Positions 31,666-54,122 of a stretch of 64,000 bases of DNA are shown one piece after another. The DNA is taken from the NCBI GenBank assembly GCA_004297775.1, contig SCUE01000032.1, positions 124,001-188,000 on the forward strand, given 5' to 3'. Position 1 is the first letter of the stretch, and each line of letters begins with the position of its first letter. The translations under genes were made by a program, and so were the position numbers. The DNA is from Chloroflexota bacterium. Lineage in GTDB: Bacteria; Chloroflexota; UBA6077; FW602-bin22. The notes beneath the pieces are model-generated. The model did not search any database. It was given only the letters and a program-made list of their open reading frames with translations, and was not told the origin of the DNA.

Positions 31666-33084
31666 TTGGCGGCACAGTACGATCTAGTCGTTGTCGGCGC
31701 CGGGTCGGCCGGCCTCGCCGGAGCTGGGTTTGCGCGCAAGCTGGGGCTGAAGGTCGCGCTGGCCGAGTCCTCGCGCGTCGGCGGCGACTGCACGTGGACT
31801 GGCTGTGTGCCCTCAAAGGCTCTGCTTCACGCGGCCGAGACCGCCCATGTCGGGCGCGCCGAACGCCGACGTCTATTTCTGCGGCGACCTGAAACGGATA
31901 TCGACTTTACCGCGGTCAGGCGAACGGTGGACGCCGCCCGGGACCGGGTCTACGCGCTCGAGACACCCGAAGCGCTCGCACGCGATGGGATCGAGTTGTT
32001 TCTTGGACCGACCGCGTTCCTCGACGCGCACACGCTCGAGGTTGGAAGCCGCGCGCTAACGGCGAAGCGATTCCTGATTTGCACGGGGGCGTCACCGGCA
32101 GTGCCCGCGATACCTGGGCTGACCGATGGCACGGATCTGACCAGCGCCACTGTCTTCGATGAACTAACCGAACTGCCCGATCGACTGGTCGTCCTCGGCG
32201 GCGGACCTGTTGGCGTCGAGCTTGCCCAGGCGTTCTGCCGCTTGGGATCACGCGTGACATTGATTGGGCGCAATCGACGCGTTCTTGCGGCCGCCGACGA
32301 GGAGGCGAGCACGATCATCCTTGAGGCTCTTCGATCCGAAGGCATCACCGTATGCATCGGCTCCGAAGTCGACCGGATCGAGCGCGGCGTCGGAAGCACG
32401 ATCGTCAAAGCTGGTGAACAGCGCCTTGAGTGTGACGCCCTCCTCGTCGCGGCTGGCCGCCGGCCGAATGTTGCCGGTCTTGGCCTGGAACACGCCGGTG
32501 TCGAGATCGGCGCGATGGGAATTTCGGTCGACAGAAATCTTCGCACCACCCAATCGCACATCTACGCCGCGGGCGATGTGGTCGGATCCTTCCAGTTTAG
32601 CCACTACGCCGGTTGGCAGGCCGTGATGGCGGTGCGAAACATGTTCCTCCCGGGCTCGACGCCGGCGATGCTTTCGGCGGTACCGTGGGCGGTCTTCACC
32701 GATCCGGAGGTCGCCCAGGTCGGACTGACCGCGCGCGAGGCGAGTGAGCGATGCCTGCATCACGTCATCCGCCGATTTCCGATCGCCCGGAACGACCGCG
32801 CGCAGATCGTCGGCGAGAGCCGCGGCATGATGAAGTTCGTCCTGCGTCGAAACGGCACGATCCTCGGTGCGACGATCGTCGGGACCGCGGCCGCCGAACT
32901 GATCAACGAAATCTCACTGGCGATGGACAACAGGATCCCATTCGACAGGCTGTGCCGGAGCATGCACGTCTATCCCAGCCACGGCTTCGCGCTTCAGCTC
33001 GCCTCGGTCGACGACTTCTACGAGAAGCTGGTGAGCGGCGCCACCGGATCGGTCTTGCGCGCGCTGGCGGGTCTCGCGCGGTGA
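31666..33084 (+). CDS. MerA-like FAD/NAD(P) pyridine nucleotide-disulphide oxidoreductase
   Basis: 472 residues. DLVVVGAGSAGLAGAGFARK binds FAD, SRVGGDCTWTGCVPSKALLH has the redox Cys pair C-x4-C, RLVVLGGGPVGVELAQAFCRLG binds NAD(P), and IYAAGDVVGS is the second FAD motif. The C-terminal dimer domain is present and ends in MHVYPSHGFALQL, where lipoamide dehydrogenases carry H-x-HP; here it is YPSHG as in MerA-like proteins. There is no HMA domain and no C-terminal Cys pair, so mercury reduction is doubtful. TTG 31666 has GAGAGG five bases upstream. It precedes the radical SAM gene on the same strand. Confidence 0.88.
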   Translation: MAAQYDLVVVGAGSAGLAGAGFARKLGLKVALAESSRVGGDCTWTGCVPSKALLHAAETAHVGRAERRRLFLRRPETDIDFTAVRRTVDAARDRVYALETPEALARDGIELFLGPTAFLDAHTLEVGSRALTAKRFLICTGASPAVPAIPGLTDGTDLTSATVFDELTELPDRLVVLGGGPVGVELAQAFCRLGSRVTLIGRNRRVLAAADEEASTIILEALRSEGITVCIGSEVDRIERGVGSTIVKAGEQRLECDALLVAAGRRPNVAGLGLEHAGVEIGAMGISVDRNLRTTQSHIYAAGDVVGSFQFSHYAGWQAVMAVRNMFLPGSTPAMLSAVPWAVFTDPEVAQVGLTAREASERCLHHVIRRFPIARNDRAQIVGESRGMMKFVLRRNGTILGATIVGTAAAELINEISLAMDNRIPFDRLCRSMHVYPSHGFALQLASVDDFYEKLVSGATGSVLRALAGLAR

Positions 33085-33132
33085 CCCCACGTTACAGAAC
33101 CGGCCTTTGGCGGCCAAGACATCGGAGGATTC

Positions 33133-34683
33133 ATGGCACTTGACATCACCGCGCCCGCGCCGATGGCCGGAGCCAAGAAGGACGCGGACTACGTCTTCTA
33201 CGAGCTGACCCGCTCCATCTGCCCCGAGTGTCGTCGGGTGATCGACGCGCAGATTCTGCTCCGCGAGGGCAAGGTTTACATGCGCAAGCGCTGCCCGGAG
33301 CACGGTCCCTTCGAGGCGCTTGTCTACGGCGACGCCGAGGCGTACACGCGCGGCGCGCGCTTCAACAAGCCTGGCACCATCCCGCTCGCGTTCACGACCG
33401 AGATCGCGCGGGGCTGTCCCCACGACTGCGGCCTCTGCCCGGACCATCAGCAGCACGTCTGCGTCGGCATCATCGAGGTCAACTCGGCCTGCAACATGGA
33501 GTGCCCGCTCTGCTTCGCGAATGCCGGGGCGGGCTTCAACCTGACGCTCAAGGACGTCGAAGGGATCCTCGACCACCTGGTCACGACTGAGGGTAGCCCG
33601 GAGGTCGTCCAGTTCTCCGGCGGCGAGCCGACCATTCACCGGCTGATCATTCCGATGATCAAGGCCGCCAGGGCGCGCGGGATCCGCCACGTTATGCTGA
33701 ACACCAACGGCAAGCGTATCGCGAACGACGACGCCTTCCTGGCAGAGTTGGCCGAGGTCCGGCCGTCGATCTATTTTCAGTTCGACGGTTTCGCCAGCGA
33801 GACGTACCGGATCATCCGGGGCGATCCGGACATCCTGCCGGAGAAGCTGCGAGCCCTGGAACGGTTGGCCACGATTGGCTGCGGCGTAATTCTGGTCCCG
33901 GCCATCGAGCGCGGCGTCAACGACCACGAGGTCGGTGCGATCGTGAGGTTCGCGCTCGAGCACCCCGCGGTGCGCGGAATCAACTTCCAGCCGGCCTTCC
34001 ATGCTGGCCGTCATAGCACCCACGATCCGCTCCAGCGTGTCACGATCCCGGATGTCCTTGGATGGATGGAGGCGCAAACCGACGGTCTGTTCCTGAAGAG
34101 TGATTTCGTGCCAGTGCCGTGCTGCTTCCCGACCTGCAACTCGGTGACCTACGCCTACGTCGACGGTGAGACTGTCCTACCTCTGCCGCGGGTGCTGAAC
34201 GTCGACGACTACCTCGATTACATCACCAACCGGGTCGCGCCCGACCTCTCCGACGAGATCAGGCGCGCGCTGGAGGGCCTCTGGTCGTCCTCGGCCGTGC
34301 CCGGCTCGGACAAGTCCGCCGCCGAGTTCGCGCTCTCGTGCGCGGCGTGCGATCTGGCGGGTCTGGACCTCGGGGCGGTCGCCGATCGGATGTTCATGAT
34401 CATGCTGCAGGACTTTATGGATCCCTGGACGTTCAATCAGAAGAACCTGATGAAATGCTGCAAGGAGTTCCTGCTCCCCGATGGCCAGCAGATCCCGTTT
34501 TGCGCCTACAACTCGGTCGGCTACCGGGAACAGGCCCACATCCAACTCGCCGCCCGCGAGCGTGCGCGCAACCGGGCAAAGCGTGCCGGCGTCCCGGTCG
34601 AGACGACGCCGATCACCTTCGACTTCAAGAAGCCGTACCCGCATCTGCCGCTCGTACCGAACAGGCACGGCCGATCATGGTGA
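33133..34683 (+). CDS. Radical SAM enzyme of the tetraether lipid synthase (Tes/MJ0619) type
   Basis: 516 residues. The radical SAM cluster motif is C120-x3-C124-x2-C127 (CNMECPLC), followed by QFSGGEPTIH. Extra cysteines match what is known of Tes: an N-terminal C30-x2-C33 with C54-P-E-H (rubredoxin-like iron site), C95-x3-C99-x2-C102 (CPHDCGLC), PCCFPTCNS, LSCAAC and KCCKEFLLPDGQQIPFCAYN. Archaeal Tes joins phytanyl chains into tetraethers and is reported to hold three [4Fe-4S] clusters plus a mononuclear iron. Bacterial homologues exist; their product is less clear. Here it may couple or modify lipid chains. It overlaps the following methyltransferase gene by seven bases. Confidence 0.82.
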   Translation: MALDITAPAPMAGAKKDADYVFYELTRSICPECRRVIDAQILLREGKVYMRKRCPEHGPFEALVYGDAEAYTRGARFNKPGTIPLAFTTEIARGCPHDCGLCPDHQQHVCVGIIEVNSACNMECPLCFANAGAGFNLTLKDVEGILDHLVTTEGSPEVVQFSGGEPTIHRLIIPMIKAARARGIRHVMLNTNGKRIANDDAFLAELAEVRPSIYFQFDGFASETYRIIRGDPDILPEKLRALERLATIGCGVILVPAIERGVNDHEVGAIVRFALEHPAVRGINFQPAFHAGRHSTHDPLQRVTIPDVLGWMEAQTDGLFLKSDFVPVPCCFPTCNSVTYAYVDGETVLPLPRVLNVDDYLDYITNRVAPDLSDEIRRALEGLWSSSAVPGSDKSAAEFALSCAACDLAGLDLGAVADRMFMIMLQDFMDPWTFNQKNLMKCCKEFLLPDGQQIPFCAYNSVGYREQAHIQLAARERARNRAKRAGVPVETTPITFDFKKPYPHLPLVPNRHGRSW

Positions 34684-35492
34684 CCGCGGGAACCGGCGCG
34701 CCGGCCGATCTGAAGTCGTGCTGCGCCAACCTCTACCAGAGCGACTGGGCCAGGTTGCTGCTGGGCGACTCGTTCCACCCCGGCGGCCTAGCGCTGACTG
34801 AAAGGCTCGGCCAGTTACTGAGACTCAGCCCGGATGACCGCGTGCTCGACGTCGCCGCCGGTCGGGGGACGAGCGCGATCCATCTCGCCAAGACGTTCGG
34901 CTGCCGGATCGTCGGAGTTGACTTCGGCGCGGAGAACGTCGCTGCTGCCAGCGACGCCGCGGCGACGGCGGGCGTGGCCGACCGAGTCACGTTCCGACAA
35001 GGCGATGCCGAATGGTTATCGTTCGACGACAAGGCATTCGACGCGGCGATCTGCGAGTGCGCTTTCTGCACATTCCCTGAGAAGAAAGCCGCCGCGGCCG
35101 AACTGGCGCGCGTCCTGCGTCCGGGCGGACGCGTCGGGTTGTCGGACCTGGTCCGGCAGGGAGAACTGCCACGCGAGTTGGAGGGACTTCTGGCGTGGGC
35201 TGCCTGTATTGCCGATGCCCGTCCCGTCGATGATTATGTCGCGTTCCTGGTCGGGGCTGGCTTCATTTGGCCGAGGATCGACCGGCACGACTCATCGCTG
35301 GTCGCGATGGTCGTCGACATCCGACGGAAACTGCTCGGCGCGCAGATCCTGGCCGGAGTCGGCAAGCTGAATATGGCCGGAGTCGACTGGGCGAACGCAT
35401 TGGTCGTGGCTCGGGCCGCCGCCGACGCAGTTTCACGCGGAAAACTGGGATACGCGACGATCGTCGCGGAGAAACCGATCGCAATAACTTGA
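34677..35492 (+). CDS. SAM methyltransferase with N-terminal Cys-Cys motif
   Basis: 271 residues. DLKSCCANLYQSDWARLLLG begins at residue 11 and is followed by DSFHPGGLALTERLG, a conserved opening I have seen in this group; Cys15-Cys16 may bind a metalloid or act in transfer. VLDVAAGRGTSAIHLA and VDFGAENVAAA are the SAM site, ECAFCTFPEKKAAAAELARVLRPGG the later motifs. Its ATG overlaps the end of the radical SAM gene, so the two work together or at least are co-expressed. Arsenite-methyltransferase-like chemistry is possible, but the three-Cys set of ArsM is not present. Substrate unknown. Confidence 0.8.
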   Translation: MVTAGTGAPADLKSCCANLYQSDWARLLLGDSFHPGGLALTERLGQLLRLSPDDRVLDVAAGRGTSAIHLAKTFGCRIVGVDFGAENVAAASDAAATAGVADRVTFRQGDAEWLSFDDKAFDAAICECAFCTFPEKKAAAAELARVLRPGGRVGLSDLVRQGELPRELEGLLAWAACIADARPVDDYVAFLVGAGFIWPRIDRHDSSLVAMVVDIRRKLLGAQILAGVGKLNMAGVDWANALVVARAAADAVSRGKLGYATIVAEKPIAIT

Positions 35493-35532
35493 CGTGCCCG
35501 GGCGGGACTCTCCGGAATGGCCTGACTCCGTC

Positions 35533-36414
35533 CTACGGTAGCCGGATCGTCCCAGTGCTCGGCTCACTCACATTGATCGACGGTGCTGAGGGCGCCCTTG
35601 ATGTCGCTCCTTGCCGGGCGCGCCGGCCGACCCAGATGCCGCCACCGAGAAGCAACGCGATCGCGAGCCACACGACATCGGATACGCCCGCGACATTTCG
35701 CGCCACCCAGTCCTGGCCGCGAAACCCGAGTTCTCCGAACCCGAGGTCCTGGTACAACCCGCTGAGACCGGAACTGCCCTGGAAGGCAATGAACACGACG
35801 CCGAGTAGGATGAACAAGGTTCCAGAGGCGAGACGCGTCGAGTGAACCTGAAAGCGTCCGAGCCGAAACGCGCGTCCGCGCAGCCATGTCCGCTTCCCGA
35901 GGCTGTAGCGATCCCAGAGCCAGGCAAAGAGAAACAGCGGCGTCGCCGCTCCGAGGGCATAGGTGAACAGGAGCGCGCCGCCAACAATCGGGTTCGCCGC
36001 CGACGCCGCGATCGTCAACACTGCGCCGAGGAGCGGTCCAGCACAGAATCCCGAGACGCCGTAGACCAGACCGGTCCCGAGGATTCCGGCGGCAGAGCGC
36101 CCGCCCCCGAACCGCCCGAGCCACCCGGCCGGGACCATGCTGAACCCACCGCCGGCCAACTCGACCACGCCGAAACCAATCAGGAGCAGCCCGGCGACCA
36201 AAATGGTCGTCTCTCGGTGGTCAATTAGCAGCGCCGCGATCAGCGACGCGCCGAGCCCGAGTGGGATGAAGACTGTGCTGAGACCGGCCAGGAAGAGCAG
36301 CGTTCGACCGAGCAACTGGGTTGGACTGGTGAAGGCGTTGGCAAAGAACGCCGGCAGGAGCAGCGCCGAGCAGGGCGCCAGAAGCGAGAGCACACCGCCG
36401 GCGAACGCCGCCAC
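35533..36414 (-). CDS. CcdA/DsbD-type thiol-disulphide transmembrane transporter
   Basis: 293 residues with about six hydrophobic segments. SLLAPCSALLLPAFFA and VSGFCAGPLLGAVL carry the two Cys of the CcdA pair, one in each half of the inverted repeat, so electrons from cytoplasmic thioredoxin can pass outward. GTG 36414 is chosen because GGAGG lies eight bases upstream and family members start just here; an upstream frame overlaps the DsbA gene. It directly follows the DsbA-like selenoprotein gene and probably reduces that lipoprotein or others outside the membrane. A polar tail of about 40 residues is extra. Confidence 0.85.
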   Translation of the reverse strand: MAAFAGGVLSLLAPCSALLLPAFFANAFTSPTQLLGRTLLFLAGLSTVFIPLGLGASLIAALLIDHRETTILVAGLLLIGFGVVELAGGGFSMVPAGWLGRFGGGRSAAGILGTGLVYGVSGFCAGPLLGAVLTIAASAANPIVGGALLFTYALGAATPLFLFAWLWDRYSLGKRTWLRGRAFRLGRFQVHSTRLASGTLFILLGVVFIAFQGSSGLSGLYQDLGFGELGFRGQDWVARNVAGVSDVVWLAIALLLGGGIWVGRRARQGATSRAPSAPSINVSEPSTGTIRLP

Positions 36415-36436
36415 GAATGAGACCTCCAGCACGTCG

Positions 36437-37291
36437 CTACGCGCCGGCCCGCGCGATCGCGGCGTCGAGCGCGGCAACTAGCGCGGTGGGTGAAGCGCCG
36501 AACACTTGTCCCGCAATGACGAATCCCGGCGTGCTCCGAACGCCAAGGGACCGGCCGGCGGCGAGATCGCTCTGGATCGCGCCGAGGTCCTCGGCCTTAT
36601 CGAGGCAGGCGCCGAAGGCGGTGGCGTCGAGCCCGAGATCGCTGGCGAAGCGCTTCAGGTTGGCCGAGTTGAACTGGCCCTGGTTCTCGCCGCGTTGATG
36701 GCTGAAGAGGTAGTCGTGGTACTCCCAGAACTTGCTCTGCCGGCCTGCGCAGCGCGCTGCCTGAGCGGCCTGACGCGACTCGTTACCGATCCAGGCGAAA
36801 TCATGCCACACAATCTTGACTTTCCCGGTATCGGCATACTTCTTGACGAGTTCCGGCATCACCTCACGGGTGAAGTAACCGCAACCCGGTCATTGAAAGT
36901 CCTCGAAAACATCGAATGTCACCGGCGCACTCGGACTGCCAAGGATGTACGGCTCTGGGTAAGTTCCCACCATCAATCTCGCGACTGGCGCTGGAGCGAC
37001 TGGCCGTGCCGTATCCGGTCGCGGACTTGCCTGAGTGACCGGCGTTGGTGAGCCGACGATGGTGGGCAAAGGCTCAGCGGCGCGCGGCACGGGTGTGGCC
37101 CGCGGTGGCGCGGAAGTGCTCGACGGCACGATCACGGGTGTCGCCATCGGCGGCGCGATTACGGAAATCGCGATCGACGTCGGCGCCCGCGACGGCGCAG
37201 CCACCGGCGTCGCGGGAACCCCGGAGCACGCTGAGACCAGGACCAGACCGGCCGCAAAGACGACGATTGGGGAGCGCGCCGGCAACAACAA
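36437..37291 (-). CDS. DsbA-family lipoprotein, predicted selenoprotein (in-frame TGA at 36890-36892)
   Basis: 284 codons if TGA is read as selenocysteine. Residues 1-21 form a signal peptide with lipobox LVSAC (Cys22), then a Pro/Thr/Ala linker to about 115. The thioredoxin-like domain starts at VTFDVFEDFQ; the next codon is TGA, then PGCGYF. Related DsbA/DSBA-like proteins have FEDFQCPxC here, so TGA stands for the first, nucleophilic Cys (Sec134, partner Cys137). Downstream the frame is open for 150 codons with intact family features (KVKIVWHDFAWIG, RCAGRQSKFWEYHDYLF, LGVRSTPGFVIAGQVFG with cis-Pro). A SECIS-like hairpin lies 17-31 nt after the TGA. Three TTG codons follow GGAGG; any could start. 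Followed by ccdA. A nonsense mutation is the alternative. Confidence 0.88.
36859..36873 (-). promoter_or_regulatory. Predicted bacterial SECIS hairpin of the DsbA-like gene
   Basis: On the minus strand TCACC pairs with GGTGA (5 bp) around the loop CGTGA. The loop begins 21 nt after the TGA and contains a G-U step, as bacterial SECIS loops do. Weak extra pairing (GTT with AAC) can extend it. It lies in the coding sequence, where SelB-dependent bacterial elements occur. Confidence 0.6.
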
Positions 37292-37360
37292 CCTCCATCG
37301 GTCGAATCACAGCGGTAGAGGCACCGCGGACAATGAGTCTAGGCGGGCGCGGCCCATTCT

Positions 37361-37380
37361 TCTGTAGCGATGATTACAGA
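37361..37380. promoter_or_regulatory. Crp-type palindrome upstream of the DsbA-like selenoprotein gene
   Basis: Reads TCTGTAGCGATGATTACAGA, a TCTGTA/TACAGA inverted repeat with eight bases between. TGT to ACA spacing is ten, as in TGTGA-N6-TCACA. It lies 70 nt upstream of the first TTG of the DsbA-like gene. Confidence 0.6.
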
Positions 37381-37470
37381 GTCGGCGCGGTCAGCTTGAG
37401 TCGAATGACGCCTGTGCGCACGTGCGTCCTGACCGCGCGACGCCGCCACGCATCCGATTCGCGGTCTCGG

Positions 37471-38691
37471 TCAGAGGACGGCTTCCGCTGACTCAATTCG
37501 CGACTTCCCGCCCGCGAGCGGCTCGACGTAGCCGCGGATGGCCAGGGCGGCCGTCGCGCCTTCCCCGGCCGCGGACGCGGCCTGCTTGGTGCTGCCGGCG
37601 CGAACGTCGCCGGCCGCAAAGATGCCCGGCACGCTCGTCTGCAGCGTCCCGTCCGTGACGATGAAACCGCGCTCGTCGAGTTGGACCACGCCACCCAACA
37701 TCTGCGTGTTTGGCGTCAGTCCGATGAATACGAATACGCCGGCCGGTCGTAGCTCGGTCGTCTCGTGACTCTGCGTGTGGCGCAGGATAACCGACTCGAG
37801 GTACGACTTTCCCGTGAATGCCTCGGGAGTCACCTCTGTCATTACCCGTATACGCGGATGCGCGACGACCTTCTCGGCCACGACGCGACTCGCTCGCAGA
37901 CCTAGGCCGCGGGTTGCGATCGTGACCTTACTCGCGAACTTCGTCAGAAAGAGGCCCTCCTCGGCGGCCGAATTGCCGCCACCGATCACAAGCACCTCGC
38001 GATCTCGATAGAACGGGCCGTCGCACGTGGCGCAGAAGTGCACGCCCGCGCCGATGAAGTCCTTTTCGCCGGGAATCTCGAGGCGCCGGTACGTTGAGCC
38101 GAGGGCAAGCAACACCGCCCAGGCGCGGTAGTGCTCGCCGTCCGCGGTACGGACATCGCGATAGCGCCCGTCGGCATCGACTCCGACAACCCGCTGGGCG
38201 CTGAGAATCTCGACGCCGAAGCGCTCGGCTTGCTGCCGAAGCCGGTCGGCAAATTCGGCCCCGCCTATCCCCTCTGGAAATCCCGGGAAGTTATCGAGCC
38301 GCTCGGTCACACCGGCCTGGCCACCGATGCCACCGCTCTCGATGACCAGCGTGTCGATCCCCTCGCGCGCGGCGTAGAGGGCGGCGGTCAGTCCGGCCGG
38401 TCCGCTGCCAACGATGATGAGGTCGTAGAAGCGGCGCTGTCCGCTGGTGAGGAGGCCGAGCTTTTCCGCAAACTCGGCGTTGGTCGGCTCGACCAGTGTC
38501 GAACCGTCGCCGAACACGATTGTCGGAATGATGTTCTTCCCGGCGTTGACACGCTGAACCAGCCGAAGCCCTTCTGGATCCTTGTCGACATCGACGTAGG
38601 TGTAGGGCACACGCTGTTCGGCGAGAAACCTCTTGGCGCGTTTGCAGTCCGAGCACCAGAGAGTTCCGTAGAGCGTAATCGCGTTGTTCAC
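37471..38691 (-). CDS. Glutaredoxin-thioredoxin reductase fusion
   Basis: 406 residues. Residues 1-80 are a glutaredoxin/NrdH-like domain (TLYGTLWCSDCKRAKRFL with C13-x2-C16, NIIPTIVFGDGS with cis-Pro). From 88 on is thioredoxin reductase: DLIIVGSGPAGLTAALYAAR, HFCATCDGPFYRD (redox CATC), VLVIGGGNSAAEEGLFL and GIFAAGDVRAGSTKQAASAAGEGATAA. NADPH electrons could be handed internally from CATC to the glutaredoxin CSDC. Such fusions are known in several bacteria. It lies just downstream of a thioredoxin gene on the same strand and, with CcdA, would feed the extracytoplasmic DsbA-like and peroxiredoxin-like proteins. Confidence 0.92.
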   Translation of the reverse strand: MNNAITLYGTLWCSDCKRAKRFLAEQRVPYTYVDVDKDPEGLRLVQRVNAGKNIIPTIVFGDGSTLVEPTNAEFAEKLGLLTSGQRRFYDLIIVGSGPAGLTAALYAAREGIDTLVIESGGIGGQAGVTERLDNFPGFPEGIGGAEFADRLRQQAERFGVEILSAQRVVGVDADGRYRDVRTADGEHYRAWAVLLALGSTYRRLEIPGEKDFIGAGVHFCATCDGPFYRDREVLVIGGGNSAAEEGLFLTKFASKVTIATRGLGLRASRVVAEKVVAHPRIRVMTEVTPEAFTGKSYLESVILRHTQSHETTELRPAGVFVFIGLTPNTQMLGGVVQLDERGFIVTDGTLQTSVPGIFAAGDVRAGSTKQAASAAGEGATAALAIRGYVEPLAGGKSRIESAEAVL

Positions 38692-38798
38692 TGAATACTC
38701 CGAAATGGGATTGGCGGCCTGTAGTGCCGCCGGTCTTGCTCGCGCGAGGGCGCCGAGATGACTCGGTCACCGTACTTTGGGAACTCTTGTTCCGATCG

Positions 38799-39164
38799 TT
38801 AAGCGGCGGACACGGGTATCAGGTGCTTCCCGAAATGGGCGAGTAGTGCGTGTTTCGGAAGCGCCCCGACGACGCGTCCGACTTCGCGTCCGTGCTGGAA
38901 GAGGATGAGGGTGGGTAGGCCGTCGACTCCGTACCGATCCGCCAGAACCGGATCTCGGTCGACGTCGATCTTGACGACTTTGAGGCGGTCGGCCTCTTCA
39001 CGCGAGACCTCATCCAGCGCCGGTGCGAGCGCTCGACAGGAGGGGCACCACGACGCCCAGAAATCAACGAGAACCGGAACCGCCGGTTGCAGAACCTCGC
39101 GCTCGAAGGTTCGCTCCGTCACCTGGATCGGTCCTCTCATCTGTCCGTTCGTCCTGTCAGTCAT
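38799..39164 (-). CDS. Thioredoxin
   Basis: 121 residues. VLVDFWASWCPSCRALAPAL holds the active site with CPSC instead of the usual CGPC, KVVKIDVDRDPVLADRYGVDGLPTLILFQHG has the cis-Pro region. The CPSC dipeptide should shift redox potential toward a more oxidising or specialised role. ATG 39164 is chosen because GGAGGG lies four bases upstream. It is followed after about 107 nt by the glutaredoxin-thioredoxin reductase gene, with two small hairpins (CCGAG-ATGA-CTCGG; GGAAC-N4-GTTCC) between them that may attenuate read-through. Confidence 0.9.
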   Translation of the reverse strand: MTDRTNGQMRGPIQVTERTFEREVLQPAVPVLVDFWASWCPSCRALAPALDEVSREEADRLKVVKIDVDRDPVLADRYGVDGLPTLILFQHGREVGRVVGALPKHALLAHFGKHLIPVSAA

Positions 39165-39255
39165 CAAACCCTCCTCTGTGGGCCGAGCCCACCGTTTTTC
39201 GTGCACCACCGAACCGCCGGTGCTAAGTGCCACGCTAGCGGCGTGTGATCGGGCG

Positions 39256-39285
39256 GTCAGTAACGTCCGCTACGTTTCGACTGAC
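39256..39285. promoter_or_regulatory. Inverted repeat between the thioredoxin and ArsR genes
   Basis: GTCAGT-AACGT, five bases, ACGTT, three bases, ACTGAC: two nested inverted repeats (6 bp and 5 bp). It lies about 92 nt upstream of the thioredoxin start and 168 nt upstream of the arsR-like gene. It could be an operator or a leader hairpin; it is not of the TGTA-N8-TACA type. Confidence 0.4.
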
Positions 39286-39421
39286 GAGCGGCTCGGGTCG
39301 AGGCGGCTGCGGCACCGCTGACACCCAAAGCCAGGCCAGACGGGTCGGGCGCCGCGCGGAGACCGCGACTCCGTCGTACTTGGCTTGCGCTACCTTCCCG
39401 GTTCCGCTACGATAGTATCCA

Positions 39422-39435
39422 CATATTCGGATATG
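39422..39435 (+). promoter_or_regulatory. Dyad in the promoter of the arsR-merF-merA operon
   Basis: CATAT-TCGG-ATATG, a perfect 5-bp inverted repeat, followed at once by another CATATG. It lies 17-31 nt upstream of GTG 39453. Imperfect AT-rich dyads of this kind near the start are typical ArsR/SmtB operators, so self-repression relieved by metal is likely. Confidence 0.55.
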
Positions 39436-39452
39436 CTCATATGGAGGTACAG

Positions 39453-39821
39453 GTGATCGACGAAGGTCTACGCACGATGGATGGGGCGACCACCGATGCC
39501 ACGGCCGAAATCGGCGCGCGGTTTTTCCGCGGCCTGGCGCACCCGGCACGCGTGCGCATCCTCGACCTGCTGATCGACGGCGAGAAGAGTGTCTTCGAGC
39601 TCACTGAACATACCGGTCTAGCGCAGAGTCGGATCTCGACGCATCTAGGCTGCCTGAGGGCATGCGGCTTTGTGAGCGCCCGCCGAGACGGCCGATTCGT
39701 GTACTACCAGGTGAGTGACGGGCGCATCCGCGACCTGCTGCATCTGGCTCGCGAGGTCATCGCCGAGAACGCCAGCCGAATTCTGGCCTGTCACGTCGTC
39801 GCGCGGGAGATCGGCATATGA
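39453..39821 (+). CDS. ArsR/SmtB-family metal-responsive repressor
   Basis: 122 residues. FFRGLAHPARVRILDLLIDG, SVFELTEHTGLAQSRISTHL (recognition helix) and LRACGFVSARRDGRFVYYQVSD (wing) form the winged helix. Cysteines are in LGCLRACGFV and LACHVV; the canonical ELCVCDL of ArsR is replaced by KSVFELTEH, so the metal site differs. A GGAGG box five bases before GTG 39453 decides this start over ATG 39441. The stop overlaps the next ATG (ATGA). With merF-like and merA downstream, Hg(II) is the expected signal. Confidence 0.88.
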   Translation: MIDEGLRTMDGATTDATAEIGARFFRGLAHPARVRILDLLIDGEKSVFELTEHTGLAQSRISTHLGCLRACGFVSARRDGRFVYYQVSDGRIRDLLHLAREVIAENASRILACHVVAREIGI

Positions 39822-40063
39822 GGAACGCATGTATTCCGGCTGTCGGCTTGGGCGTGTGCTGTTCGGTTCACGTCACGGTGCCACTCCTCGTCGCATTCGG
39901 ACCGGCGGCAATCGCCGCGCCCTTCCTTGATGCACTTCCGGTCGCCGTCGGGACGCTTCTGATCGGAGCGCTCGCCGCGGCGTGGATCGGGCAACGTTTC
40001 CGTCGGGACTGCCTCCGCCCGAAGCCGCAGTTCATGATCACCCCCCTGGGAGGCCGACAATGA
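39818..40063 (+). CDS. MerF/MerT-like small membrane protein, probable Hg(II) importer
   Basis: 81 residues with two hydrophobic helices (about 8-34 and 38-62). A vicinal Cys pair is in the first helix (GLGVCCSVHVTV), and another Cys follows the second (RFRRDC). MerF has the same size, two helices, and vicinal Cys pairs, and carries Hg(II) to MerA. The similarity is in layout and not in close sequence. Both ends overlap neighbours by four bases (ATGA), so translation is coupled to the repressor and to merA. Confidence 0.62.
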   Translation: MRNACIPAVGLGVCCSVHVTVPLLVAFGPAAIAAPFLDALPVAVGTLLIGALAAAWIGQRFRRDCLRPKPQFMITPLGGRQ

Positions 40064-41760
40064 CCGACATCACGTATCGCATGTCCGTCGAGGGCATGAC
40101 GTGCGCCGCCTGCGACACCCACGTCGTTCGGGCGCTCGAAGGTGCCGGCGCCAAGCACGCCGAGGCAGACTTTCGTCGCGGCGAGGCGATCTTCCGCGCT
40201 GCTGCGAGTATCGACCAGAAGACGCTCGTCGACGCCGTCCGGGCAGCGGGCTATCAGCCGAGCCCCGCCACACCTGTGGATGCGACGAAGCCGCGCGGCC
40301 ATCAGGACGCACCGGTAACCGAATTGACTGCGCCGCGCCGGCCGCGACGCTCCAGCGTGCGCGGCGCCGCCTACGATCTGGTCGTAATCGGATCGGGCAG
40401 CGGCGCGTTCGCGGCCGCGATCACGGCACGGGAACTCGGCGCCAAGGTCATGATGGTCGAACGGGGGACGCTCGGCGGAACCTGCGTCAACATCGGCTGC
40501 GTGCCGTCGAAGACGCTCCTCCGGGCTGCCGAGCTGTACCACCAGGCAGCGCGCCAGTCATTCGCGGGCGTCGAGACCCGCGTTGGCACCGTGGACCTGG
40601 CGGCCCTGATCGGGCAAAAGGACGAACTGATACGCGGCCTGCGTAGCGCGAAGTATGAGGATCTGGTTGCCCATTACGGCTGGGACTTCGTCCACGGTGA
40701 GGCGAGCTTCGTCGACGAGTCGACGCTTAGCGTCGATGGCCGGGAAGTCCGCGCCAAGCGTTACATCATCGCGACCGGCGCCAGGCCGGCCATTCCGCCG
40801 ATTGCGGGGCTCGCTGAGACCAACTACCTGACCAGCACGACCGCGCTGGAGTTGACCAGAATGCCCGAGCGGTTGGTCGTAGTCGGATCGGGGTACATCG
40901 CGCTCGAGATCGGGCAACTCTTCTCGCACCTTTCCAGCGAGGTTACGCTGATGCAGCGCAGTCCCCGCATTCTGAAGGAGTTTGACCCTGAAATCGGCGA
41001 GGCGATGCACGCGGCTTTGAGTGAGCAGGGCATCCGGTTCGTCACCGGCGTCGGCATCTCGCGGATCGACAGCGGCAGTTGGGGCCGGCGAGTCCACTTC
41101 GAAGTGGGAGGGGAAGAACGTACCATCGAGTGCGACGAGCTCTTAGTCGCGACCGGGCGAACGCCGAACACGGCCGAACTGCACCTCGACCGCGCGCGGG
41201 TCAATCTCGGCGAGGGCGGCGCGGTGCTGATCGACAACTACGGACGTACGTCCAATCCCCGAGTCTTTGCCGCCGGTGACGTGACCCTCGCGCCACAGTT
41301 CGTCTACGTGGCGGCCTACATGGGGGCCTTGGCTGCCAGGAACGCGCTGCGGAACGCGAGGCAGCGGCTGGACCTGCGCGTCGTGCCAAGAGTTACTTTC
41401 ACCAGTCCGGCCTTCGCGACTGTGGGACTCAGCGAGGCGGAGGCTCGCGCCGCCGGGCACAATGTGAAGACTTCCGTACTTCCCGCCTCGGCCGTGCCGC
41501 GCGCCCTGGTCAACCGCGATACCCGTGGCGTCTTCAAGATCGTCGCCGATGCGAAAAGCGACCGCATCCTGGGAGTGCACGTCGTGGCCGAGAACGCCGG
41601 AGACGTGATCTACGCCGGGGTTCTGGCGATAAAGTTCAATATGACTGTGCGGGATCTGGTCGAAACATTCGCTCCCTACCTGACGATGGCCGAAGGGCTG
41701 AAGCTGGCGGCGCAGTCTTTCGGCCGTGATATCGCGAGGTTGTCCTGCTGCGCAGCGTGA
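40060..41760 (+). CDS. merA: Mercuric reductase with N-terminal HMA domain
   Basis: 566 residues. Residues 1-68 are an HMA domain with GMTCAAC (C15, C18). A linker leads to the flavoprotein core: DLVVIGSGSGAFAAAITARE, GGTCVNIGCVPSKTLLRAAE (redox C142 and C147), RLVVVGSGYIALEIGQLF and RVFAAGDVTLAPQFVYVAA. The C-terminus ends in LSCCAA, the Cys pair that hands Hg(II) to the active site across the dimer. All features needed for NADPH-dependent reduction of Hg(II) to Hg(0) are present. A GGGAGG box precedes the ATG. Third gene of the ArsR-type mer operon. Confidence 0.95.
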   Translation: MTDITYRMSVEGMTCAACDTHVVRALEGAGAKHAEADFRRGEAIFRAAASIDQKTLVDAVRAAGYQPSPATPVDATKPRGHQDAPVTELTAPRRPRRSSVRGAAYDLVVIGSGSGAFAAAITARELGAKVMMVERGTLGGTCVNIGCVPSKTLLRAAELYHQAARQSFAGVETRVGTVDLAALIGQKDELIRGLRSAKYEDLVAHYGWDFVHGEASFVDESTLSVDGREVRAKRYIIATGARPAIPPIAGLAETNYLTSTTALELTRMPERLVVVGSGYIALEIGQLFSHLSSEVTLMQRSPRILKEFDPEIGEAMHAALSEQGIRFVTGVGISRIDSGSWGRRVHFEVGGEERTIECDELLVATGRTPNTAELHLDRARVNLGEGGAVLIDNYGRTSNPRVFAAGDVTLAPQFVYVAAYMGALAARNALRNARQRLDLRVVPRVTFTSPAFATVGLSEAEARAAGHNVKTSVLPASAVPRALVNRDTRGVFKIVADAKSDRILGVHVVAENAGDVIYAGVLAIKFNMTVRDLVETFAPYLTMAEGLKLAAQSFGRDIARLSCCAA

Positions 41761-45601: not shown

Positions 45602-46957
45602 TCACGCTAGCGGTAGGCGCTGGTAGAGCCAGCCGCTGACGACGTGGAAGTTGCCGGTCGCCATCGTCGCACCGAAGAAGAACATCGTGATGCCCGAGAC
45701 CAGTCCGATGGCCGGCGAGGCCCGGTGGAGCCGGACCGCGACCGGGAGCACCCGCGAGAGGCTGAGCGCGGCGAGCATGAACGGGATCGCGATCCCGAGC
45801 GAGAAGACGAACATCGCCAGCCCGCCGAGCAGCGCCGAGCCGAGCAGACCCGAGTAGACGAGCAGAACGCCCAGAATCGCGCCGCCGAAGCAGGCCAGGC
45901 AGCCAGTCGCGATCGCAAAGCCGCTGACGAACGGCGCCAGGAACGGGACACGGCCACTGTCACGCACCGAGGCCGGCATCGGGATCTTGCATACCAGCGG
46001 CGCCCGGGAGCGGTGTGCCACCACGGCGGCCATCGCCATCATCACGACGCCCGCACCGACGGCGATCGGGCCGGTCGGGGTGAGCAGACCGCTGGCCGCG
46101 ACCGCCTGACCGAGGGCGCCCATCAGCGCGCCGCCGATCGTATACGGGATCGTGAAGCCGAGCACGAACAGCCCGGCCGTCCGCACGACCCGCCGCTGAT
46201 CCGACGCGCTCAGGCTGTCGCGATCACCGTTCGCGTCGACTTGCACGCCGGCCAGCGTCGGGAGGTAGAAGGCGGTGAGTTGGAGGAGGCACGGCGAGAT
46301 CGCGGCGAGTAGGCCGGCCGCCAGCGAGAGGAGCAGCCCGATGCTGAGTGGCCGCGGGTCCATCACGTCGGCGGGGTAATCTATCGGGGTGTCCCACCGC
46401 AGCGCAGTGCGGGTTGCGGTCGTGCTCGGGAGCAGCAACTCGAAGACGTGCGGTTCGTCGAGCATTCGCACCGTCACATCGTCAAAGATCACCACGTTGG
46501 TCCGGTGGTGGACCGCGTCGGTGAGTGCGCGGACCTCGGTTGGAAGGCGCATCGTGGCGCCATCGATGCGCAGAATCGGCGAGAACTTCGGGGAGAGTTC
46601 CCCGTAGTGCACGTTCTCGTTGGCGACGAAGACCAGCGCCCGATCGGCGCGCATCTCGGCTGCTTCCTTCGGCCGCCGGGTCGCCTCGAAGAAGGTTGGC
46701 GTCGTCAGGATCGCTTCGACCTCCACACCGGCGATAGCGTAGCCTGACCGGGTTAGCAACTCCTTCAGCTCCGTCGCCTGACTGGTCCTGGTCTGCTTGG
46801 CTGCCGCCAGGGTTTCGCGGCCTTCGGTCTTGACGATCGCCAGCCAACCAATCGAAACGGTGACCGCCACGATCGCGAGCACGACCAGAAGAACCCAGCG
46901 CGCGTACGGCGGCGACGCGGACCGCGTTACGGGTACGACACCCAGTTCCTGGTACAT
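45602..46957 (-). CDS. CcdA-like membrane protein with N-terminal extracytoplasmic domain
   Basis: 451 residues. One membrane helix (about 22-42) is followed by a ~150-residue soluble domain (VFVANENVHYGELSPKFSP and VVIFDDVTVRMLDEPHVFEL), then a six-helix CcdA-type unit with AAISPCLLQLTAFYLPTLAG and ATGCLACFGGAILGVLL, the two functional Cys positions. It should carry reducing power or a related cofactor across the membrane. ATG 46957 has GGAGG eight bases upstream. It lies between the propeller-cupredoxin gene and the YtkA-like lipoprotein, so maturation or reduction of copper proteins is the likely job. Confidence 0.82.
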   Translation of the reverse strand: MYQELGVVPVTRSASPPYARWVLLVVLAIVAVTVSIGWLAIVKTEGRETLAAAKQTRTSQATELKELLTRSGYAIAGVEVEAILTTPTFFEATRRPKEAAEMRADRALVFVANENVHYGELSPKFSPILRIDGATMRLPTEVRALTDAVHHRTNVVIFDDVTVRMLDEPHVFELLLPSTTATRTALRWDTPIDYPADVMDPRPLSIGLLLSLAAGLLAAISPCLLQLTAFYLPTLAGVQVDANGDRDSLSASDQRRVVRTAGLFVLGFTIPYTIGGALMGALGQAVAASGLLTPTGPIAVGAGVVMMAMAAVVAHRSRAPLVCKIPMPASVRDSGRVPFLAPFVSGFAIATGCLACFGGAILGVLLVYSGLLGSALLGGLAMFVFSLGIAIPFMLAALSLSRVLPVAVRLHRASPAIGLVSGITMFFFGATMATGNFHVVSGWLYQRLPLA

Positions 46958-47038
46958 CGGCGCAACCTCCATCCGCGCGCGAAATGAGTGGATCGCCCGG
47001 GGAGCGATCGTATCGATCACCCCACGAGCGGACCGGGA

Positions 47039-53065: not shown

Positions 53066-53132
53066 CTCGGTGGCGTCGGGCGCCGTAGAGTGCCGATTGC
53101 ACGCTGCTTGGAAACGCGGTCAGGAGGCCACG

Positions 53133-54122
53133 ATGCAAACCCACCTGCCGAACCTTGATTTCGAACAGATCGGGCCGCTCCTCGGCGCCTGGTTTCCGGT
53201 TGTGCGGTTGCCCGATCAGTCCGGCGCGATGGTCGATCTCCACGCCGCGCGGGCCGACCGCCGAGCGCTGGTCGTCTTTCACCGCAGCGCGCTCTGGTGA
53301 CCGTACTGCAAGACGCAGCTGGTCGAGCTGCAGAAGCGTCTGGCGGATCTCGATCGCGGCGGATACGCCGTCTTCGCGATCAGCTATGACCCCGTGTCCG
53401 TCCTGGCCGCGTTCGCCGAGCGCTGGGGCATCACCTATCGATTGTTGTCCGACGAAGGTAGCCACGCGATTCGGTCCCTCGGTCTCTACAACGAGCACCT
53501 GGCCGAGCAGGCCGCGGCCCACGGCGTACAGGCGCGCGAGCATCACTACGGGGTGCCGTATCCGGGGACCTTCGTCCTGGACGAAGCCGGAGTGATCGTC
53601 GACAAGTGGTTCGAACAGAGCTATCGCGTCCGTCCGTCGGGCGCTGTGACGCTCGAGAAAGTGGTCGGCGCCGGCCCGGCGCAGGCGAAGGTGTCGGCCC
53701 AGAGCGAGGCGAATGGCATCGCGGCGCGCGCCTGGCTCGCCGACGACTCCTATCGCCCCTACCAGCAACTCCTACTGCACGTCGTGATCGAGCCCGCGCC
53801 GGGCGTGCACGTCTATGGCGACCCGATTCCGGATGGATACCAAGCCCTGCGGATCGAGATCCAATCACTTGAGGGACTCGTCGTTGGACCGATCGAACTC
53901 CCCACACCGGCGACGCTCGTCGTGCCCGGTCTCGACGACTCATTCGTCGGCTACGAACGCGCCATCGACGTCACGATACCTTTCAGCATCAACGGCCGTC
54001 TGGGGCCAGTCGCGCTCGGCGTAAGCATCGTGTTGCAGGCGTGCGACGACACGGTCTGCTACCCGCCGGCCGAGATTCGGCTTGCCCTGCCTCTTGACGC
54101 CGAAGAGAATATCCGCGACTGA
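53133..54122 (+). CDS. Peroxiredoxin-like/DsbD-alpha fusion, predicted selenoprotein (in-frame TGA at 53298-53300)
   Basis: 329 codons if TGA is read as selenocysteine. Residues 1-195 are an AhpC/TSA-like redoxin: LVVFHRSALW, then TGA, then PYCKTQLVELQKRLADLD. Cys-containing relatives have W-C-P-[YF]-C-K here, so Sec56 replaces the first Cys and Cys59 is its partner. YAVFAISYDPVSVLAAFAER, YRLLSDEGSHAIRSLGLYN and VPYPGTFVLDEAG complete the fold. Residues 205-325 resemble the DsbD N-terminal (alpha) domain, ending with C304-x4-C309 (CDDTVCYPP). GGAGG lies five bases before ATG 53133. No signal peptide is seen. A SECIS-like hairpin lies 15-31 nt after the TGA. Role: probably peroxide or disulphide reduction with electron relay to the second domain. 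Confidence 0.9.
53311..53341 (+). promoter_or_regulatory. Predicted bacterial SECIS hairpin of the peroxiredoxin-like gene
   Basis: GCAGCT (53315-53320) pairs with AGCTGC (53326-53331) around loop GGTCG. A lower helix pairs AGAC (53311-53314) with GTCT (53338-53341). The loop begins 20 nt after the TGA. The E. coli fdhF element has GGUC in its loop at about the same distance, which makes this a convincing match. Confidence 0.72.

Follow-up and report, generated by a model that had tools for sequence, protein, structure and literature searches.

A probable selenoprotein joining a Sec-x-x-Cys redoxin domain to a DsbD-alpha-like domain in a Chloroflexota bacterium

Selenoproteins of the peroxiredoxin (Prx) type have been described in several forms. 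The available part of one catalogue contains Prx-like thiol:disulfide oxidoreductases (PF00578, UxxC) and a Redoxin family protein (PF08534, UxxC), as well as TsoB (NF045694), a rhodanese/DsbD fusion-like selenoprotein with the motif UxxxxU (PMC13188914), and the accessible portion of another source describes a selenoprotein, Prx-like 3, joined to a further domain that has three Cys, a CxxC among them (PMC2398784). The gene analysed here lies in a stretch of 64,000 nucleotides (the window), and its product resembles each of these systems in part. As in the UxxC entries of PF00578 and PF08534, an AhpC/TSA or Redoxin domain carries selenocysteine (Sec) as the first residue of UxxC, whereas the fusion to a DsbD-alpha domain sets our protein apart from them, going by their table description (PMC13188914). 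Like the Prx-like 3 fusion (Unknown_3), it combines a Prx-like domain bearing a Sec UxxC motif with a Cys-bearing domain, but Unknown_3 has, by its partial description, three conserved Cys and a CxxC, in contrast to the C-x4-C found here. It shares with TsoB a DsbD-like domain within a selenoprotein fusion and a pair of residues four apart; on the catalogue portion available, TsoB has UxxxxU and a rhodanese partner, whereas the motif here is CxxxxC and the Sec is located in the Prx-like domain. The N-terminal domains of DsbD (DsbD-alpha) and ScsB (1l6p, 1vrs, 1jzd, 6c29) resemble our C-terminal domain in overall fold, with moderate TM-scores, and in the QxC...CYPP site, but the window protein has one residue fewer between the two Cys and an attached redoxin, and unlike whole DsbD it has no fused transmembrane beta and gamma domains. 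The N-terminal domain also shows a weak profile likeness to SelL-related proteins (NF040769, 31.3 bits, cut-off 120), with a single Sec (UxxC) in our case. No Prx/DsbD-alpha fusion was seen in the available parts of PMC9312934, PMC1794560, PMC12013277 and PMC5029168, nor in the titles and abstract openings returned by literature searches. Sec UxxC Prx-like proteins are already known as a kind, and what looks new is the variant with a fused DsbD-alpha domain and its distribution, although the window family may overlap a catalogued entry, such as HEU0032618.1 or WP_010940744.1.

The gene and its parts are located as follows.

53133..54122, + strand: the probable selenoprotein gene, 329 codons and then a terminal TGA, with Sec as codon 56
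53122..53127, + strand: Shine-Dalgarno sequence AGGAGG, from direct reading, 5 nt upstream of the ATG
53298..53300, + strand: in-frame TGA, read as selenocysteine (residue 56) from the homolog column and the held-out loci
53307..53309, + strand: Cys59, the partner of Sec56 in UPYC, aligned to the Cys of the AhpE TxxC motif
53193..53600, + strand: AhpC/TSA (Prx-like) domain, residues 21-156 (PF00578, E 2.6e-23, with model matches)
53763..54074, + strand: DsbD-alpha-like domain, residues 211-314 (PF11412 DsbD_N, E 6.7e-11)
54042..54059, + strand: C304-DDTV-C309 dithiol (C-x4-C) near the C-terminus, from conservation and the E. coli alignment

The frame starts with the ATG at 53133, crosses the TGA of codon 56 in the context LVVFHRSALW-U-PYCKTQLVEL, and continues for 273 sense codons to the terminal TGA at 54120-54122, so that the original prediction of a single frame with a ribosome site upstream agrees with a direct reading. 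PF00578, PF08534 and PF11412 are the only domains over the Pfam cut-offs in the 329 aa, and Sec56/Cys59 and C304/C309 are both in this frame, as expected from the proposal that one chain holds a Sec-Cys centre and a second dithiol. What the gene specifies is very probably a redox protein built of two parts, in which the rare amino acid selenocysteine takes the place of an apparent stop; on the sequence evidence we are nearly certain that the product is a selenoprotein, and we hold its two-domain architecture with very high confidence. By a crude hydrophobicity rule the window protein has no signal peptide and is therefore probably cytosolic. With the same rule 48/74 Sec and 15/17 Cys homologs, and 0/9 own-phylum members, are over the signal-peptide threshold, and most Acidobacteriota-side relatives have a signal peptide, unlike the window protein.

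A protein alignment across the TGA, proposed earlier as a check, gave a clear outcome. Among 92 aligned homologs, obtained after dropping three duplicates, the site is TGA in 74, Cys in 17 and missing in one, while all 29 held-out loci have TGA, bringing the TGA forms to 103 of the 120 homologs with a readable site. The codon persists while protein identity falls to 25-58%, and in two rows a second TGA is simply their terminal stop. In the window's own phylum, nine of 400 genomes match at E<=1e-20, the source genome included, each with one in-frame TGA; this, together with the presence of only TGA or Cys at the site (91/92 homologs), places the codon-56 TGA beyond chance, as had been argued when chance nonsense mutations were judged unlikely. 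In four own-phylum relatives, codon positions 1 and 2 differ less than position 3 on both sides of the TGA.

The remaining homologs came from three sources. A search of genome contigs gave 20 loci, of which 15 with a visible site were used (4 TGA and 11 Cys); L040 was also taken, its site being off the contig, and was excluded from the Sec/Cys counts, and L042-L045 were excluded as partial or weak matches (L044 reads WCPYC). In the phylum of the Acidobacteria-labelled MAG G405, 52/396 genomes have a homolog, with 81 matches, 72 of them taken as loci and the other nine each showing one TGA. In the phylum of G403 (labelled Deltaproteobacteria), 34/377 genomes have a homolog and each of the 40 matches listed has one TGA; 30 of these were taken as loci, or 29 without one duplicate, and the remaining 10 again show one TGA each. 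The duplicates removed were L071, L075, L082 and L151. No match to the window protein was found among plasmid records at E 1e-12.

In a tree built quickly from 91 rows (site column removed, SH-aLRT support only, long branches flagged), the Sec/Cys label changes 10 times, six of them imposed by starred branches. The window gene sits in a starred set of 13 rows, the smallest to contain it, which is all Sec, long branches included, and a Sec-to-Cys direction would be the simpler reading of the changes. L038, a record titled Bifidobacterium breve, nests among Acidobacteria on this tree and is probably a mislabelled or mis-binned contig.

The absence of Sec machinery from the genome, or of any likeness of the downstream frame to redoxin proteins, had been named as what would speak against a selenoprotein. 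The frame contains a redoxin and a DsbD-alpha-like domain, and the source genome (96% complete, 7% contaminated) has, in profile searches, selA (553 bits), selB (296.7 bits, or 327.6 with its in-frame neighbour) and selD (394.1 bits), all over their cut-offs, in addition to a tRNA-Sec (74.4 bits, anticodon TCA). The selD gene (L013, from position 1501) has its own in-frame TGA, in HGAG-U-ACK, which makes SelD another probable selenoprotein.

Downstream of the TGA we identified a candidate decoding signal.

53315..53331, + strand: SECIS-like hairpin GCAGCU-GGUCG-AGCUGC, with arms at 53315-53320 and 53326-53331 and the loop at 53321-53325

It spans 17-33 nt past the T of the TGA. The SECIS criteria given in the available part of PMC13188914 are a loop of 3-9 nt, a stem of 4-16 bp, a distance of 16-37 nt from the UGA, a G in the first two loop positions and an MFE <= -7.5, and the hairpin agrees with them (6-bp stem, loop GGUCG beginning 20 nt past the TGA, and -10.4 kcal/mol when 21 nt are folded), whereas in a 47-nt fold the GGUCG hairpin is not the best structure. 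Because it overlaps the QLVELQ codons, the constraint imposed by the protein had to be removed, and we resampled synonymous codons from each gene's own usage with the protein and the hairpin position fixed. The full 6-bp stem is present in 49/53 distinct Sec sequences against 8.8 expected, and in 3/17 Cys genes against 1.1 expected. As the position was chosen after seeing the original data, the test was repeated on new sequences, and the held-out replicate has the stem in 28/28 distinct Sec sequences against 2.5 expected. Paired changes in the stem occur (e.g. CAG..CTG to CAA..TTG), and the CTG-GTG combination is seen in 1/49 sequences, compared with 8.1 expected. Fold z-scores also differ between Sec and Cys forms (Mann-Whitney p 8.7e-5), but the Cys forms lean to stable folds as well (z below 0 in 13/17, Wilcoxon p 0.013), so part of the fold signal is not Sec-specific. 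The SECIS search called for in the original prediction therefore had a mixed outcome: the position-specific 6-bp hairpin is upheld in both data sets, but a generic bSECIS filter does not separate Sec from Cys forms (20/37 versus 5/11) and chose a different hairpin for the window gene. An Rfam scan of the window returned nothing. Taken from these sequence comparisons, a role of the hairpin in helping to decode the UGA as selenocysteine is strongly supported.

A selA over cut-off is present in 48/55 genomes with a Sec form and in 4/16 with Cys forms only (Fisher p 4.5e-6). This count covers both earlier genome lists, places G531, which has both forms, among the 55, and excludes the genomes of L040 and L043 (site unseen) and those of the G403 phylum. 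One (G804) of the seven Sec-form genomes without selA over cut-off has split pieces. A tree-aware test of the Sec/selA association, underpowered with its 6 pairs, was not significant (median p 0.625). In G444:C15 and G598:C80, selA adjoins the gene on the same strand, with gaps of ~0.2 and 0.36 kb. In the window's phylum selA is found in 320/400 genomes, so that its presence alone is weak support there. Across 22 flanked loci and six window genes we found no conserved gene partner, and the largest neighbourhood cluster is an antisense shadow of the selenoprotein gene. A cluster lies near the homolog at L032 1222-3594 and L034 671-3077, which we take to be of the DoxX/DUF692/DUF2063/DUF2282 kind, and its small member occurs alone at L041 898-1176.

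The window contains another gene of this type.

36437..37102, - strand (5' end not fixed): second selenoprotein, DsbA/DsbG-like, FEDFQ-U-PGC, with the TGA at 36890-36892

It has Thioredoxin_4/DSBA domains (PF13462, E 3.4e-31) and is likely to belong with the Rcas_1661 (seleno)lipoproteins, although its 136.2 bits with NF041057, a model for a (seleno)lipoprotein type, do not reach the cut-off of 190. The frame is real too, in agreement with the claim that two genes of the window have TGA at a functional position. The surrounding stretch, 31666-41760, is rich in redox genes, with a Pyr_redox-glutaredoxin fusion, a DsbD_TM protein, a thioredoxin-like ORF (38799-39140, identified by reading its sequence), a radical SAM protein with an HMPTM zinc ribbon and a methyltransferase. 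DsbD_TM proteins are encoded in the window at 35533-36432 and 45602-47020.

The full-length protein was modelled with AlphaFold2 (16 rows, Cys replacing Sec), with a pLDDT of 90.0 and a pTM of 0.85, and in Foldseek the N-terminal domain of the model matches Bcp/PrxQ, AhpE and ResA. The active site U-P-Y-C is a motif of the CxxC type that opens with Sec56. Aligned with AhpE, Sec56 is opposite the Thr of TxxC and Cys59 opposite its Cys, the peroxidatic Cys of AhpE; from this arrangement a Sec-x-x-Cys thiol oxidoreductase is expected. The Sec Prx motif is given as PxxxTxxU in the accessible part of PMC13188914. In the window protein, residues 51-59 (RSALW-U-PYC) do not contain the PxxxTxxC signature, as there is no Pro (R51/S52) and the Sec is at the Thr position. 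The earlier description of a peroxiredoxin-like/DsbD-alpha fusion with TGA at the catalytic Cys is supported, with the refinement that the active site is of the Sec-x-x-Cys kind. Sequence and model together show a thioredoxin/TlpA-style centre in this domain.

The C-terminal domain scores 42.7 bits with PF11412 DsbD_N, against a cut-off of 25. Its site reads QACDDTVCYPP, with two Cys ahead of YPP; C304 and C309 are kept in at least 90% of the 16 rows of alignment A1 and in 16/16 rows of alignment A2 (L035 left out, L040 added). Modelled alone, the domain has a pLDDT of 91.7, and at E<=0.001 Foldseek gives 21 matches, 19 of them to chains of DsbD-alpha or ScsB, with query TM-scores of 0.43-0.58, a moderate likeness. 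A sequence-profile search of the PDB gave four weak matches (E 0.55-0.79), all DsbD-alpha, in which YQACDD-T-VCY aligns with E. coli YQGCADAGFCY; the E. coli spacing is C-x5-C and that found here C-x4-C, with one gap versus 5nhi. The proposed likeness to DsbD-alpha and the terminal C-x4-C pair are both borne out. In 7/74 Sec members the profile match does not extend through the whole DsbD domain. Five of them, the L132-type, seem to be genuinely short; for L121 and L131, truncation or divergence of the sequence may be the cause. The five are shorter Sec paralogs (L132-L134, L137, L138; YRGGW-U-PYCNTQL) whose profile match ends ahead of the DsbD domain, and their genomes also hold other Sec copies.

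The best explanation, which we consider highly likely, is a Sec-decoded selenoprotein, a Sec-x-x-Cys redoxin with a fused DsbD-alpha-like reductase arm. In the proposed mechanism, the UGA of codon 56 would be decoded as selenocysteine through SelA, SelB, SelD and tRNA-Sec, aided by the short downstream hairpin. The Sec56 selenolate would attack an oxidised substrate (disulfide, sulfenate or hydroperoxide), and Cys59 would then join Sec56 in a Se-S bond; this bond would be reduced by C304/C309 in the fused domain, a dithiol recharged in turn by thioredoxin or a CcdA/DsbD-TM-linked thiol. The thioredoxin-like ORF and the two DsbD_TM proteins of the window are possible donors for C304/C309. Free DsbD-alpha reduces Trx-fold clients, and reduction of the Se-S bond by C304/C309 is proposed by analogy with this; the DsbD-alpha complexes 1vrs (disulfide-linked to the DsbD C-terminal domain) and 1jzd (with DsbC), both among the C-domain matches, offer a precedent for such a relay. 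We put the chances of an intramolecular relay, with the Sec centre reduced by the fused dithiol, at roughly even.

Other readings of the codon have to be weighed. A 242-aa ORF begins at 53394, where a simple gene predictor split the gene, as would fit a TGA that is a true stop, whether in a pseudogene, through a sequencing error or between two short proteins with re-initiation at GTG 53394. This is very improbable, given the same TGA in 74/92 homologs and 29/29 held-out loci despite their divergence and the protein-level selection that persists before and after it; re-initiation at 53394 would moreover lose the active site. Read-through of UGA as Trp exists, but it is scarcely credible that the codon specifies Trp or, by near-cognate read-through, another amino acid instead of Sec, since the non-TGA members that show the site have Cys in 17/17 cases, TGA serves as the ordinary stop of 17/34 checked predicted genes of the window, and the genome has the full Sec machinery, including the tRNA-Sec with anticodon TCA.

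If the Sec-decoded reading is adopted, its function can still be seen in two other ways. The DsbD-alpha-like domain could be something other than the internal reductant, docking a client or reducing other proteins while thioredoxin recycles the Sec domain. DsbD-alpha in DsbD hands electrons to several other proteins, and L132-L134, L137 and L138 are Sec homologs that have no such domain; we regard this as a real possibility, although below even, against which stand the conservation of C304 and C309 and the C-x4-C pattern near the C-terminus of 63/74 Sec and 15/17 Cys members. It is more doubtful that the window protein is a true peroxidase (peroxiredoxin). The AhpC/TSA fold, the top PDB matches to Bcp/PrxQ and AhpE, and the best NCBIfam match, the thiol peroxidase NF006960, are in its favour, but that match scores 42.8 bits where 140 are required (the protein falls below the cut-off of every NCBIfam model), ResA-type proteins match too, and PxxxTxxC is missing, with R51/S52 where Pro is expected and Sec in place of Thr. 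The active site, a Sec-x-x-Cys as in TlpA and ResA, does not imply a peroxidase activity.

Returning to the Sec-x-x-Cys redoxin with a fused reductase arm, the homologs suggest, with about an even chance of being right, a widespread, ancestrally Sec-using and self-reducing Prx/DsbD-alpha family, in which at least six Sec/Cys replacements would have taken place, often where selA is missing. Such a family would span the window's phylum, Acidobacteriota, the G403 phylum and a MAG of the Alphaproteobacteria, and some of its genomes hold several paralogs. If real, it would have escaped notice because gene prediction ends at the UGA and the window protein does not reach the cut-off of any NCBIfam model. 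Since relatives in several bacterial groups keep the TGA, genome annotations are probably truncating a family of selenium proteins. On this reading the 103 TGA genes, and probably many more, would be selenoproteins that routine annotation splits or calls broken. The family would also offer repeated natural exchanges of Sec and Cys within a single enzyme, accompanied by loss of the hairpin, in which the benefit of selenium can be tested, and it would suggest a selenoenzyme with its own reductase arm, linking DsbD-alpha chemistry to selenium.
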